Assembly (NCBI GenBank): GCA_004335835.1
Contig: RWJK01001886.1
Span: forward strand, 62,001-126,000
Length of the DNA stretch: 64,000 nucleotides
Source of the DNA: Scenedesmus sp. ARA3
Lineage: Eukaryota > Chlorophyta > Chlorophyceae > Sphaeropleales > Scenedesmaceae
Direction of reading: 5' to 3'
This document shows positions 47,573-54,167 of the stretch, in pieces. Both the position numbers and the translations under genes were made by a program. Below the pieces are notes generated by a model. That model was not told where the DNA came from and searched no databases. It was given only the letters and a program-made list of their open reading frames with translations. Numbering within the stretch: position 1 is the first letter of the stretch; each line of letters opens with the position of its first letter.

Positions 47573-49931
47573 ATGTTTCAGCGTGTCGGAAGGCTAGCAG
47601 GTGTTTGTCATGCTACTGTGAACAATCATTAGAGACGTTGGCGCATCAGCTGTTGCTTTGTGGTGTCTGTGTTTAGACAGCAGGCAGCGCATGTCAGCTG
47701 TCGCTGACTTGTGCTTGCTCAGGAGCCGCTGAAGCAGTCAGTCGGCACCAGCGTGTACCTGCTGTCAAGCTGTTGGCTGCTGCCACATAAGCATCTGCTG
47801 CTGTGCCGCGCTGCTTATTCAGGGTCTAGGCAGCTGCTGCCTGTGCAGAGGTGCAGACGTGTCCCTGTGCTGGCAGCATACCAGCAGGATCCTCAGCCCA
47901 ACAGCAGCAGCAGCAGTGGCAGAAGCTCAGGCAGCAGTGGCAGTGGCAGCAGCAGCAGCAGCAGCAGTGGCGGGTTGGGCCCCAGTAGCACTGCGCTCCT
48001 GGCACCTACGTGAGTTCTCATTTGCGCGTTCTTTTTTGCTACAACTGTGTCTCAGCAACTGCTGTTGTTATTCAGCTGTCATGAACTGATGTAGTGCTAT
48101 GGTGTCGGCCGCTGCATGGTGCCACCCTGCATGTGACGCCAGCAGTCGCCAGCATCGTGGTTTGTTACTTGGAGGTCTTCCACTGTGCTACATCGCACTG
48201 TGCTGACAGTGGTGTGGTGTGCTGAGCTTGCTGCTGCTGCACCTTTGGCTGCCCTTCACATCTTGCGCATGTGCTGCGTGAACTCTGTGTGTGCCTGATG
48301 TGCTGTGATGTGGTCTGCTTGCGCCAGCATGTTTGGGTCGATTGAGGCGCTGTTGGCGTGCCAGCTGTTAATTCATCCTATGCCTGACGTGCTGTGTTTT
48401 GCTGTGTTTTGCTCTGTTTTGCTGTGCTGGAATCATATTGCAGCATATTCGGGTCCCTTGAGGCGCTGCTGGCGCGCCAGTTCTCCAGCAGCAGGCCGGG
48501 CGAGCGCAACGACTGGCAGGAGCTGGAGGGCTGCTGGGTGCTGCGGCCGCCAGGTGAGAGCGCCTCAGCAGCAGTAGCAGCGACAACAGCAGCCAGCGAT
48601 AACAGTAGCAGCGACAGCAGGAGCGGGAGGGGTGCTGGGTGCTGCGGCTGCCAGGTTAGAGCGGCAGGTAGCTGCCTGCAGCTCCAGGAGGAGCAACAGC
48701 AGGCGCGGCAGCAGCAGCGCATCAGCAGGGGCCCTCAGCACAGCAGCAGTCCATTACCAAAACTGGGTGCAGGGCTATGGCTTGGTGTTGCAGTTGTCAG
48801 CAGCAGTCGCAGCAGGAGTTTGTGAAGCAGCAGTTGCGCTCCAGATTCAAGCAGCAGGCGCGCTTTGGGGTGAACTGGAAACAGCTGTCAAGCGACTGCA
48901 TGGCATGGTGCCTTGTGCAACCACACAAGGCATCGCCAGAAACAGGCTGTGCCTATCAGTGTGTGTGTACTACACTTGCGCTCACGCCCCAGCCCGTGCT
49001 GCCTGTCCTGCTGCCGTATCTATGCCTGCGGTGCAGCCGGGACTGCGCCCGAGGCTGTGGTGCACTTCCTGGGTGGCGCGTTTGTGGGTGCCGCGCCGCA
49101 GCTGTCGTACAGGCAGTTCCTCGAGGGGCTGGCGGCACGCGGCGTGCTGGTGAGGCTGACCATGATCAATTGAAATGTCAGTAAGAACACACAAGCGATC
49201 ACCGTGTGTGTGCTTGTGTGTGCGCCTCTCAAACAGCAAAGCATAGGACTGTAAGAGATTAGCTGGAGCAGGTTGTGTTTACGCCTGGTGGCGGCGAAGA
49301 TCTTATGCACGCATGCACAGAGCTCCTCAGGGAGTTTTTGTTTGGCTGCGGCCTTTTCTGGGTTGCCGTCAACAGCTTGGTGCTGACTGCCTTGGCACGC
49401 CAAGGGCCCGACTGTCAGGCAGTTCCTAGAGGGGCTGGCGGCACGTGGCGTGCTGGTGGGGCTGATGGCTATCTGCGCTATCTTTTGATGTCAGCATGAA
49501 CATCTGAAGCGTCACAGTGTTTGTGTTATGAACACCACAGCACTGAAAGAGGTCAGTAGGATCATGTTTGTAGACTACTGGTGGTGGTGTTGCACCCCGC
49601 ATCTACAGCACCCTTCGTGCATGGTGCGTGTGTGTGCAGGTGATCACCACGCCATTCGGCACCAGCTTTGACCAGCTGCGCACTGCGGACGAGGTGCAGT
49701 ACAAGTTTGACCGCTGCTGCAAGGCGCTGACGGTGAGGCTGGCAGCAGCAGCTGTGCGTTCAAATTTAGGGGTATGTTTCTGACTTACAGCACGCATCAA
49801 TGAGCTGTGCAAGTAGTGCAGTTTTATCGTGATTGAACGCTGTAGGTCAGTTTGTGCTGCACAAAGCAACAGTTCACAGCAGGCGGGTGCGTAAGTTGTC
49901 CGTGGTTGATGCACTTGCTCAGCACTCTTCC

Positions 49932-49967
<36 letters not shown>

Positions 49968-51859
49968 AGGCGGAGGTTGGCGAGCTGCCTGTGTATGGCG
50001 TGGGCCACAGCATGGGCAGTCTGCTGCACATGCTCATCAACGCAAGATATGCAGTCAAGGTACGTCATGCTTGTGCAATGCAGCGGCACCGATGCTGGCA
50101 CACAGTGCTGAACAGCAGCTGCAGCTGCAGCCGTCCATATGCTGGTCACCTCGCAGCTCACGCAATGCTTCATCACCTTGGTCTGCTGGCTTCTGTTGAG
50201 CCACAGGCTGCGCTGCATGGTAGGCTGGGGCCAATTTGCACAAAACACATTGATCGTGTGTGCTGATCAACCGCGTGCTGTTCGTGCATGCATGCAGCGC
50301 GAGGCCAACGTGCCGATGACATGCAGTGCTGGCCTTGAGCTAACCATAACTACTTGTGTGTGCGCGCGTGCGTGTGTATCTGTGTGCGCACTGCGCCAGG
50401 GCAACGTGCTGATGTCGTACAACAACAGGCAGCAGTGCTGGCATGGCGGGCTCACAAAACCTATGTGTGTGTGCGCATGTGTATCTGTGTGTGCATGCAG
50501 CGTGAGGGCAATGTGCTGATGTCTTACAACAACAGGCCCGCCACGGACGCCATCCCCTTCCTGTCGCCCATCCTGGCGCCCTCCGCCAGGGCGGTGGGCC
50601 CGCTGCTGGAGCAGCTGGCCACCTCGCCGCTGCGGTGCGTGTTTCAGGCTGTTTTTCGCTTACAGAAGCAGCTGCGGTAATGAAATGCATGAAATGCATG
50701 GGTGGTGGGCCCGCTGCTGCAGCAGCTGGCCACCTCGCCGCTGCAGTGCGTGTCCAACGAGCTTGCAATTTATGTTGACATCTACGTGGCGCGATCAGCA
50801 GCCTTGGCAGATGGAGCCTGTGCAGTTACAGCTGACTGCTCTGGTGTATGTATTCGTTGCCTGCTGCGATGTAGCTGCTGCAGGTCTTTGCTGCAGTCTG
50901 TGGTTTTGGCCAGATGTTTGAGTCTCTCTGTGTGCTGCATTACGTCACATGTTGCTGGCGCAGGTCTGGGCTGTAAATTGTGCCTTGGGCAGAACAGGTG
51001 TTGAGTGGTTTTTGTGCTGCCTGCTGCTGTGGTGCTGGCGCATGGCTGGGCTGCAGTTCGTAGCTTCAGGCAGATGTTGAAGCGCAGATGTTGGAAGCGC
51101 ATGCGTTAACCTGTGTGCTGCCTGCTGCTGTGGTGCTGGCGCAGGTCTGGGCTGGAGACTGTGAGCGACGCGCTGCGCGGCGTGTCTCCCAGCCTGGTGC
51201 GGCAGCTGATGCCCATCTTTGACCAGCTGACACCTATCTACATGGATGTGGCGCAGGTGGGGTGGGGGGCTGGCAGCTGCAGTTTGTCTACCTTCGGTTG
51301 TGTTGCTGCATCTTGGCTGTTGTGTGCGACGGCATGATGCATCACCAACATGACTGCATGACGCGTCACTCAGATGACTGCAGAGTTGCACTGACGCTGC
51401 AGGATGTGTTTCGTGCGGTGTGATGCCATGCAGGGCCGTCAGGAGTTCAGCCCAACACCGCAGGAGACAGCGCAGCTGCTACGCAACTACTACGGTGAGG
51501 GCTGCTGCTGGTGAACCTGTTCTGCGTTGTTCAACTACCGACAGGTGTCAGCAGCAGCAGCAGCAGCAGCAGAAGCAGCAGCAGCTTTGCCATTCTTGCT
51601 GCACTTGGCTCAGAGCAGACAGTGCCACTGCACTGCCCTGGGTGTGCATGCACCTGCTGGCGCTCTGTCTGTCCTGCCTCTGCACAGCGTGTTGATTCAC
51701 ATGGCAGCCGTTCGTCAGCACCACCTACACCTGCAGTGTTCTGGTAGAATTATTTGGTTTGAAGTCATCTGCTACTGCTGCTGCTGCTGCCGCCGCCAGG
51801 CGTGTTGCGCAACCTCATCCTCAAGTTCAAGGATGAAACGATAGACCTGCTGAGTGTTG

Positions 51860-51899
<40 letters not shown>

Positions 51900-52048
51900 G
51901 CCAGGCGTGTCGCGCAACCTCATCCTCAAGTTCAAGGATGAAACGATAGACCTGCTGAGTGTTGCGCTGCTGCTGCTGCTGCCGCCAGGCGTGTCGCGCA
52001 ACCTCATCCTCAAGTTCAAGGATGAAACGATAGACCTGCTGAGTGTTG

Positions 52049-52079
<31 letters not shown>

Positions 52080-53946
52080 GCCAGGCGTGTCACGCAACCT
52101 CATCCTCAAGTTCAAGGATGACAGCATCGACGACTCCATAGAGCTGGCGCAGCTGCTGCAGGGCAGCGCAGCCATCAGCAGCAGGCTGGACCTGTCGCTG
52201 CGCACACTGGACGGCGACCACATACGGCCCATGGCGCAGGTGCGGTGCGGCTGCGTCTGCGGTGTGGTTTGCCATGCGTGGTTTCTCAATGTGTTACTGT
52301 GCCTGCGTTCCCTGGATGGCTTGCCCAGGCCAACAAGAGGTTGTTGAGGGCGCTGCCACTTGTGATGTTTATGTGTGGTCTTTTCATGGCGTGCGGTGGG
52401 CTTGTGTACACCAGATGGCTGGCCGTGGCCAGAGCTTTCCAAGGGTGCTGCCATGGTTATTGGCAGCAGGCAGGGCTGGCTGTTGCCGGGTGCAGGCAAT
52501 GGGTTTTTGTTTGTTATTGAGCTGCGTGACAGGGTCCTGCTTGACAGGCTGTGGTTGGCTGCAGCCGGCTGGACCCGTCGCTGCCTCATCTGGAGGGGGA
52601 CCACATCCGGCCCATGGCGCAGGTTCTGGCGGCTGTGGCAGCGCGTGGGGGCCAGCATGCACCATGCTGCTGGTGGAAGGCCTGTGCTGATGTGGCTGAC
52701 TGCTGTGCACACTCCTGACCATCAACAGCATGCCTGCTTGCTTGTCTGCTGTATGTGCTGCAGGCGCTGGTAGACCTACCGCCCGAGGTGGCGCGCGTGG
52801 CTAACCAAGCAGCAGCAACAGGCGGGCAGGTGCTGGGTGAGTGGCCTGCGCTGCTTATTGGTTACCAGGGTGGCGGGTGTGATCCCATTGGTTGTCCATG
52901 CAGCGAGGATCTGATGAGCCAGTTGCCTGAAACTGATTGCCTGCATTGCTGTTCTCAAGTCATGTCAGTGATGTTTGAGGGCTGGCTGCCAAGCGCATCT
53001 TGCGTACCCCTGCGGCATGTGCGGGGCACGCGGCGTGCGCCAGCTGCTGATGGCACTGATGCTTGCTGCTGCGCTGCTGTGGATGGCAACGTTGCATTTT
53101 GCATGTAGGCTTCTGAGCAAACCTGAATACTGTTTATCTTGAAGGATCTGACTAGGATAGTTACACACGAAGATTTTTACGGAGCAGTTATGTTGTTGTG
53201 CAGGCCGCCTGGCTGACATGGCCAGCCAGATGGGTGTGGCGGGCGCATCAGGGCCACTGGCAGACCTCAGCAAGGGCGTCAGCAATATGGCCAGCATGCT
53301 CAACGCAGAGGTGGGGCTGCAGTGCTGTGGACATAGATTTAACATGATTTTGCATGTTACATGGAAGCTGCTCAACACAGGGGTGGGTGAATTGTTAGAG
53401 GGGTAGATATAGATAGAGGGGTCACATCCATGTTTGCATGCGGCTATGCCGCGACAGACACCTGGCCAATCAGGCAGCTGCAAGCAGCTCAGCTCAGGCT
53501 GTCACTCTGAGGTTCAAGGCTGAGGTTGGCGCTGCAGTGCTGTGCTGTGTGCTGTGTTGTTGGCCAGGTGGTTTTGCAGTGCCAGCCCTGGGGTGCCACA
53601 TTGTCACAGTGGTGTTACTATGTGTCACTTGCTTCATCGTTGGAGCCTTGCTGGGCTGCTAGGTGTGTTGTCTGCTGCAACAGTTACTTCACTGGCCAGC
53701 TGGGTGCGGTTGTTGTGTGCCTGTTGGGCTCTGCATGCCATGCAGTGCATGGCAGGTGGGGTACTTCTACTTGTACTTGCCAGGCACAGTGGACATCATC
53801 AGGTCGCAGTGCTGTTGCGGATCATTAGCCAGTCTTCGAGTGCGGTTGGTTGCGGCCCTCGTGCGCAGGGATGCCGGCGCTCAAGCTTGCTACAGCAGTG
53901 CATTTGACTGGTGGGCATGATCTGTTCTTCCACATTGCTGAGCTGC

Positions 53947-53986
<40 letters not shown>

Positions 53987-54167
53987 CTTTGCATGCGTGG
54001 CGCGTGCTCGTGTGCTCCGCCTGCAGCCCAACGGCCAGGCGTCCTCCTCCGCTCAAGAGCTGGCAGATGAGGTGGCAGCCTGGATGTGCGTAGGGGATGT
54101 GGTGGTGAAGGGCAGGCGTGCACTGCCAGCTTCAGCCATTGGCAAGCCAGCCGCGCAGGCACAGTGA
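47573..54167 (+). CDS. DUF1350 alpha/beta-hydrolase-like protein, probably plastid
   Basis: Thirteen exons: 47573-47600, 47823-48009, 48444-48553, 49037-49149, 49640-49732, 49970-50059, 50501-50634, 51145-51256, 51434-51494, 52085-52239, 52764-52836, 53204-53310, 54027-54167. All phases agree, giving 467 residues. The leader MFQRVGRLAGSRQLLPVQRC is basic and Ser/Gln-rich, like an organelle transit peptide. The core matches plant/cyanobacterial DUF1350: VVHFLGGAFVGAAPQLSYR, TTPFGTSFDQLRTADEVQYK, GVGHSMGSLLHMLINARYA and GNVLMSYNNRPATDAIPFLS. GHSMG (residues 189-193) is the nucleophile elbow, with Ser191 the expected catalytic residue. The substrate is unknown. The gene is extraordinary for the number of partial exon copies in its introns. 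Exon 10 exists as one full copy and three upstream partial copies; the full copy at 52085 was chosen because only it continues to a donor with conserved sequence (SIELAQLLQG). Confidence 0.88.
48326..48364 (+). repeat. Echo of the start of gene L exon 3
   Basis: CAGCATGTTTGGGTCGATTG onward matches the head of the true exon at 48441-48481 (FGSLEALLARQ) with several changes (GSIEALLACQ). It retains a CAG acceptor but runs into a stop soon after. Confidence 0.75.
48622..48665 (+). repeat. Echo of the end of gene L exon 3
   Basis: GTGCTGGGTGCTGCGGCTGC plus a GTTAGA donor mirrors the exon 3 end at 48520-48566 (GCTGCTGGGTGCTGCGGCCG then GTGAGA). The donor is weakened from GTGAG to GTTAG. Confidence 0.75.
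49413..49467 (+). repeat. Echo of the end of gene L exon 4
   Basis: The sequence encoding RQFLEGLAARGVL and its donor, present at 49109-49155, recurs here almost unchanged (CAGTTCCTAGAGGGGCTGGC) with a GTGGGG donor. It is about 300 bp downstream, within intron 4. Confidence 0.85.
50298..50440 (+). repeat. Two echoes of the start of gene L exon 7
   Basis: The true exon starts at 50501 with CGTGAGGGCAATGTGCTGAT. Partial copies occur at about 50298 (CGCGAGGCCAACGTGCCGAT) and about 50398-50432 (GGCAACGTGCTGATGTCGTA). All three are preceded by GT-rich sequence, and the first two by CAG or CCAG acceptors. Unit spacing is about 100 bp. Confidence 0.8.
50700..50755 (+). repeat. Echo of the end of gene L exon 7
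   Basis: GGTGGGCCCGCTGCTGCAGC then AGCTGGCCACCTCGCCGCTG mirrors 50593-50634 (VGPLLEQLATSPL). The donor position now reads CAGTGCGTG instead of CGGTGCGTG, so the copy has no GT at the original cut. Confidence 0.8.
50935..51144 (+). repeat. Echoes of the gene L exon 8 acceptor region
   Basis: The block GTGCTGGCGCAGGTCTGGGC at the true exon 8 start (51133-51152) appears earlier at about 50954-50972 (GCTGGCGCAGGTCTGGGCTG) and about 51031-51050 (GGTGCTGGCGCATGGCTGGG). The second has lost the AG of the acceptor. A GTGCTGCCTGCTGCTGTG leader precedes the last two copies. Confidence 0.8.
51790..52120 (+). repeat. Four-fold array of the gene L exon 10 head with CTG spacers
   Basis: Acceptor-plus-exon heads start at 51800, 51905, 51989 and 52085. 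Each reads GCGTGT(T/C)(G/A)CGCAACC and encodes RNLILKFKD. The first three continue as DETIDLLSV and then a CTG run ending in GCCGCCAG, the next acceptor. Spacings are 105, 84 and 96 bp, all multiples of three, because the CTG runs differ in length. The whole array is open in one frame. Confidence 0.92.
52558..52635 (+). repeat. Echo of the end of gene L exon 10
   Basis: CGGCTGGACCCGTCGCTGCC then GACCACATCCGGCCCATGGC mirrors the exon 10 end at 52184-52240 (GDHIRPMAQ), with a GTTCTG in place of the GTGCGG donor. Confidence 0.85.
53947..53990 (+). repeat. CTG tract in the last intron of gene L
   Basis: About eleven CTG units, 40-75 nt upstream of the exon 13 acceptor at 54026. Confidence 0.85.

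Follow-up and report, generated by a model that had tools for sequence, protein, structure and literature searches.

Partial copies of exon ends, splice sites included, in the introns of a DUF1350 gene and of other genes of a Tetradesmus-type green alga

Several described systems involve short duplications or repeated sequence at splice sites or in introns. In potato, a tandem duplication across an exon-intron boundary has been found in one RdRp gene, as a single case (Ma, Lan and Niu, 2016, PMC4974935). According to the part of that paper available to us, the end of an intron and the start of an exon were duplicated in tandem within one gene and the splice signals were copied with them, which produced a new intron as well as an insertion of exonic sequence. 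The AGGT model also involves a short direct duplication touching splice-site sequence; in the accessible portion of its description, two AGGT copies of an exonic segment come to flank the newly made intron (PMC3443670). Short tandem duplications also arise in the repair of protruding-end breaks by cNHEJ. They are direct, local and tens of bases long, and in the available part of the source they have no tie to exon ends and no 118-bp spacing is seen (PMC5730883). Finally, introners are repeated sequences in introns, mainly of fast-evolving lineages such as green algae, and the part of the source at hand describes them as families across genes (PMC9860276).

Here, we describe copies that will be called echoes. 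An echo is a short copy of the head or the tail of an exon, splice site included, lying inside the neighbouring intron. Whereas the potato duplication is a single case, echoes are counted in dozens, they lie within existing introns, they have a preferred spacing and similarity of their intron part is lost. Unlike the AGGT duplication, an echo copies a second donor or a second acceptor into the same intron, and unlike an introner, it is a copy of its own exon. As far as the available parts of the four sources go, none of the compared systems has all the features of the echoes (PMC4974935, PMC3443670, PMC5730883, PMC9860276). A previous sequence-only reading of this DNA had been aware of no named mechanism that gives such a pattern at every other exon of one gene. 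In view of the portions at hand of two of these reports (PMC4974935, PMC5730883), this was too strong, but neither of them explains the density of the echoes, their preferred spacing and their stop at the splice site. A search of the open-licence literature, subscription journals being outside its coverage, found no account of such copies of exon ends, either for this alga or for any other.

The window, that is the whole 64,000-nucleotide stretch analysed here, corresponds to C1467:62001-126000 of an 87-Mb draft assembly of 1567 contigs. It contains a DUF1350 (PF07082) gene at 47573..54167 on the + strand, on which all features given below also lie. Its 13 exons were rebuilt by hand: 47573-47600 (exon 1), 47823-48009, 48444-48553, 49037-49149 (exons 2 to 4), 49640-49732, 49970-50059, 50501-50634, 51145-51256 (exons 5 to 8), 51434-51494, 52085-52239, 52764-52836, 53204-53310 and 54027-54167 (exons 9 to 13). 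The start of exon 4 was set at 49037 because of the acceptor at 49035-49036 and of the phase. The product, 467 amino acids long, matches PF07082 (Pfam, E 6.4e-55) and is 98% identical to the T. obliquus protein P0002, which indicates that the source genome is that of Tetradesmus (Scenedesmus) obliquus or a very close relative. In alignments, exons 2-13 are in accord with the T. obliquus models P0001 (UniProt A0A383W0Y9) and P0002, the latter being devoid of most of exon 2. The hand-built exon 1 disagrees with both models and is unconfirmed.

Of the 24 exon ends of this gene, 8 score at least 22 against their own adjacent intron: the head and tail of exon 3, the tail of exon 4, the head and tail of exon 7, the head of exon 8 and the head and tail of exon 10. 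In 500 dinucleotide shuffles, no DUF1350 exon end reached 18. Thus, the echoes proposed from the sequence beside exons 3, 4, 7, 8 and 10 are upheld. The one suspected beside exon 12 is doubtful: placed by eye at 53366..53389, this tail echo corresponds to an exon end with a borderline score of 14.0 (P 0.004 from the shuffles) and was not counted. The head of exon 3 is echoed at 48325..48364, 116 bp upstream, with the AG kept (85% identity; score 25, unmatched by shuffles). Its tail is echoed at 48608..48663, 101 bp downstream (88%; score 37), and the decayed donor that had been noticed at about 48655 indeed reads GTTAGAG. The tail echo of exon 4, at 49416..49465 and 306 bp downstream, is 94% identical and has a donor GTGGGG at 49456, in agreement with the near-identical copy claimed at 49413-49467; the flanking intron is alike too, but with just 62/82 aligned.

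Exons 7, 8 and 10 have two or three head echoes in succession. For exon 7, the outer one (50284..50325, exon-equivalent start 50298) keeps the AG, and the inner one (50380..50430, exon-equivalent start 50394), 107 bp upstream of the exon, has TG instead of AG and is 77% identical across a longer stretch (score 29.6). The tail echo of this exon, at 50700..50753 and 111 bp downstream, is 94% identical with GTGCGTGT kept; no similarity was detected in its 57-nt spacer. The head end of exon 8 scores 22.5. Its outermost echo (50870..50902) is 73% identical to the middle one (50950..50982), in which the AG is kept, and the inner one (51013..51056), 101 bp upstream of the exon and 93% identical, has lost the AG, as had been claimed at about 51041 (CAT at 51041-51043). 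The three head echoes of exon 10 are in tandem at 51777..52061, with CTG tracts between the units. Their exon-equivalent starts are 51800, 51905 and 51989, and the spacings are 105, 84 and 96 bp. These units differ mainly in CTG number, and their lengths are all multiples of three. The array may vary between strains, as suggested by the two units apparent in P0001. Finally, the tail of exon 10 is echoed at 52561..52624, 383 bp downstream (84%; score 27.5), with a donor GTTCTG at 52623.

Other genes were surveyed with a small, home-made, self-trained gene finder in its strict two-strand version, so that exons are predictions except in two genes. On the DUF1350 gene, this program found nine exons exactly, shortened exons 2 and 3, merged the exon-10 echoes into exon 10 and added a few false pieces; the hand-made DUF1350 exons were therefore substituted for its predictions in the surveys. 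The first set comprised 226 kb including N and the final one 277 kb without N. The 277 kb, out of 87 Mb, were sampled by contig number, which is not fully random, and 126 kb come from the contig of the window. The controls were introns belonging to other genes, the intron on the wrong side of the exon, exon interiors and randomly drawn intron pieces. In the first survey, 16/184 tails and 15/189 heads scored at least 22, compared with 0/373 for wrong-side introns, 2/216 for exon interiors and 11/294 for random intron pieces. At this threshold, the DUF1350 gene is richer than average (8/23 ends vs 23/350 in other genes). At P<0.01, the same survey gave 39/373 exon ends, 23/294 intron pieces and 11/216 exon interiors, with wrong-side introns near chance (5/373).

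In the larger survey of 277 kb, echoes were found at 76/580 exon ends (40/287 tails and 36/293 heads) and in 65/327 predicted introns. Among the 76, 33 overlap another predicted exon, and in some of these, what is taken as the exon may be the echo and vice versa. The pattern had been thought to be confined to one gene. This does not hold: echoes occur in 21/45 predicted gene pieces, all 21 being among the 33 with four or more exons, and on 9/11 sampled contigs. Other points of the same reading are supported, namely that copies of exon-intron junctions grade from identical to decayed, lengthen introns and bear extra splice sites. Pfam recognized GST, TPR and kinase domains in three echo-bearing predictions. 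Independently of the gene finder, tblastn with the T. obliquus proteins ValRS (P0121) and DUF1350 (P0002) found many exon ends twice or more, the repeat matches lying on the same strand beside the exon. The ValRS gene (L024-L025, C1400:20001-40000) is also echo-rich, with 13 echoes in the larger survey and several in tblastn. The C-terminus of the ValRS record P0121 also carries alpha/beta hydrolase domains (Pfam); P0121 is possibly a fusion of two gene models. In a genome search with the whole DUF1350 gene, in which 40 of 288 candidates were scored, the only matches elsewhere were a 106-bp repeat from intron 12 and CTG/CAG-type simple repeats; neither the echoes nor a second long match to the gene turned up. 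Hence, in these 40 candidates, the same sequence was not found in the introns of many genes, as it would be for introners.

The position of the echoes follows the exon: those of tails lie in the intron downstream of the exon and those of heads in the intron upstream of it. In the 70/76 echoes that could be extended, the copied block covers on the exon side a median of 48 nt for tails and 45 nt for heads, and on the intron side a median of 7.5 nt past donors (control 3) and 11 nt past acceptors (control 5). The block edges therefore have about the same extent as splice-site constraint. In the matches reaching the junction, the GT is retained in 31/36 tails and the AG in 28/34 heads. When 45-nt windows were compared with the adjacent 700 nt, 77/578 exon ends (13.3%) were echoed vs 64/1631 intron windows at least 45 nt from a junction (3.9%), with an odds ratio of 3.8 (Fisher p 1.2e-13). 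The tail echo rate rises in exon windows starting at -135, -90, -67 and -45 (5/154, 13/219, 26/257 and 41/285), is 42/312 across the junction and is then 12/325, 11/312, 9/298, 10/275 and 10/241 in the intron. In the same window series, heads give 3/160, 6/225, 19/262 and 36/293 on the exon side toward the junction, 42/319 across it and 24/326, 19/313, 13/298, 13/278 and 9/241 into the intron. A cruder tiling of all windows gave 50/662 at junctions, 107/1893 in introns (head echoes included), 41/1232 in exons and 62/2105 in intergenic DNA. A mini-exon structure was rejected, an AG standing immediately before the block in 5/36 tails (by eye). A search for known RNA families returned none.

The copies are direct and close, as expected of short-range tandem duplication: local repeats within 1 kb at 40 bits or more comprise 204 direct and 7 inverted ones (alignments counted, arrays entering more than once). 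Templated insertion by polymerase theta is expected to yield copies in both orientations, which does not agree with this count. The distance from the true site to the echoed site has a first mode within 90-150 bp (mean 118, SD 15, n=40) and a second one at about 209-262, around 235 bp. Of the 63 distances within 85-270, only 2 fall within 151-205 (binomial p 9.5e-8) and, after merging rows, 2 of 56 (p 8.8e-7), this interval having been picked in both cases after seeing the data. An intermediate echo is present at P<0.01 in 8/21 second-mode cases, with none at that level in 13/21. A spacing of 90-150 bp is also found in 16/31 intron-only and 11/49 intergenic repeats (alignment counts). A spacing set by the reading frame was rejected, since the 76 distances distribute as 28, 24 and 24 by frame.

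With respect to divergence, echo blocks differ from their own exons by 7.7% on average (75/76 pairs of the larger survey). The 43 echoes lying outside other predicted exons show 8.5, 8.2 and 14.6% differences at codon positions 1, 2 and 3; in the same class, 18/22 gaps are not multiples of three and 3 stops were counted vs 5.8 expected. Coding selection on the echoes was rejected from these codon positions, frame-breaking gaps and stops. The codon-position pattern fits a neutral echo standing beside an exon that changes mainly at silent sites. Between exon and echo, similarity of the intron part was found in 22/73 pairs (tails 9/39, heads 13/34), whereas a neutral simulation expected 70.5. Hence, many pairs either never received a copy of the intron part or lost it as the block was being renewed. 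In the 75 pairs, intron parts were alike at P<0.01 in 21, gave P>0.2 in 34 and lay between in 20. In the 21 pairs with an alike intron part, local divergence is 12.7% vs 6.7% in the block. As this is near the two-fold ratio expected under neutrality, the introns do not look hypervariable. Intron-part similarity is not correlated with block divergence (Spearman -0.14, p 0.23). Past the block, similarity ends cleanly on the exon side (1/59 continuing at P<0.01), while it continues in 18/69 on the intron side. A single case, located on C1467 some 67.5 kb from the window start, has a fresher block flanked on both sides by older similarity, as conversion would give. When 22 spacers were compared with the 277 kb, 13 matched themselves only, 4 their own-array neighbours only and 5 something elsewhere; a single filler family was therefore rejected.

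What a mechanism has to yield is thus a set of local copies that keep to one side and one orientation, have a preferred spacing, bear no coding constraint, stop near the splice site and occur generally within the sampled genome. The reading that we prefer, with a probability of about 0.45, is that segments across exon ends are first duplicated at short range and that the block held by selection then undergoes slippage or conversion. The duplication is directly visible in the copies; the homogenising step is what we infer. Segments of the gene body spanning an exon end would duplicate locally, in direct orientation, about 118 bp apart or twice that distance. The outer splice site would keep working, so that selection would tolerate the echo, and it would purge any copy falling inside an exon. 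Selection would also keep the genuine end of the exon constant, along with its splice site, and the echo itself would be neutral. In the block where exon and echo still match, slippage or short tracts of gene conversion between them would then reset this block and add or remove units, and the unselected intron part would be left to diverge or be lost. This reading is preferred because the blocks end about where splice-site constraint ends, because some arrays step in whole units and because pairs alike over the full unit have the same distances as pairs alike in the block only.

Several observations weigh against duplication with homogenising. The exon-end excess depends on the threshold (39/373 vs 23/294 at P<0.01; 50/662 vs 107/1893 by tiling). 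Conversion should yield many half-decayed intron parts, and 20/75 pairs are intermediate. Mosaic echoes are rare, 1/59 having older exon-side similarity beyond the block, and 13/21 second-mode cases have no intermediate echo at P<0.01. The 118-bp spacing is not accounted for either. The echoes have the appearance of an ongoing, neutral process of duplication, by which introns are lengthened and annotation is misled. They would offer a genome-scale collection of duplicated junctions, ranging from identical to decayed, with which intron growth, the birth of cryptic splice sites and local homogenisation could be traced. The mean intron of T. obliquus is 462 bp, vs 230-302 bp for four other algae in the same table, in the available part of the source (PMC5966456), and echoes may help to explain these long introns.

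It may also be imagined that copying is limited to the exon end, each event taking the exon end with about 10 nt of intron and inserting it with unrelated filler deeper in the intron. The edge of the blocks would be expected if the template stopped at the splice site, as an RNA serving in the repair of breaks might. This is possible though somewhat unlikely. It fits the sharp edge as well as duplication with homogenising does, and it is the more novel of the two: in the 36 tails, the copy reaches a median of 7.5 nt into the intron vs an exon-side run of 31-105 nt, the 95% point of the intron-side control being 10.6, and among the 29 first-mode pairs whose block identity is 0.9 or more, 11 lack similarity in the intron (P>0.2; hand count). 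The spacers that match themselves only (13/22, the others being divided as above) agree with unrelated filler. However, distances of the same kind are found in the 21/75 pairs whose likeness extends to the intron part, which suggests a single process, and the fall in identity near +10 is based on 36 tails. We know of no enzyme performing such copying. In a bolder form, which we consider unlikely, a splice-site-bounded process would repeatedly write an exon end, together with some 10 nt of intron, into the intron next to it, about 118 bp or double this distance away. The template might be a splicing-associated RNA, or the process might be set by gene-body chromatin, and about one-fifth of the sampled introns would then hold a growing record of their own exon ends.

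Plain neutral tandem duplication, from paired nicks, protruding-end breaks or slippage and with no later homogenising, would account for the direct orientation and the tandem arrays. In this case, exon ends would seem special because the conserved exon copy keeps the pair recognisable for longer. Intron-only and intergenic repeats exist too, the exon-end excess over introns is small in the first survey at P<0.01 and in the tiling, and a junction-spanning precedent is known from potato, in the part of the paper at hand (PMC4974935). Already strained, this reading appears quite improbable. It would make the whole unit homologous between copies, while this is seen at P<0.01 in 21/75 pairs, and 22 recognisable intron parts were found vs the 70.5/73 expected. 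Moreover, 13.3% vs 3.9% exceeds the detectability advantage of exon ends, which was estimated by reasoning to be about 1.7-fold.

That echoes would be functional alternative or mutually exclusive exons is very improbable. Many splice sites are kept, in-frame stops are few (4 in 1373 codons) and P0001 translates two in-frame copies of the exon-10 echo with their leucine tracts, but codon positions, stops and frame-breaking gaps reveal no coding constraint and, of 7 DUF1350 homologues aligned, P0001 alone contains any echo stretch. These stretches are probably intron sequence translated by annotation, which is a warning that gene models of this alga can hold echo-coded peptides. Two echo stretches of the ValRS query are likewise absent from P0121 and from P0122, a record that, judging by its name, comes from a transcript assembly. 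AGGT-type intron gain was not observed in these records, as P0002, P0121 and P0122 cross the intron positions and are devoid of echo stretches. Finally, merged haplotypes or repeats in a draft assembly of 1567 contigs would be the least probable explanation, given the 7.7% block divergence, the decayed arrays, the presence of the exon-10 array in P0001, a second T. obliquus record that shows sequence differences of its own, and the fact that the 40 genome candidates scored out of 288 contained no further long match to the gene.

Intron 12 contains, at 53405-53517 of the window, a dispersed repeat of about 106 bp. It was found in at least 39 other places, with 40 of 86 candidates scored, on both strands and with 79-90% identity. 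The repeat ends near GGTTCAAG, which we take to resemble a tRNA-type B box, and it may be a small SINE.
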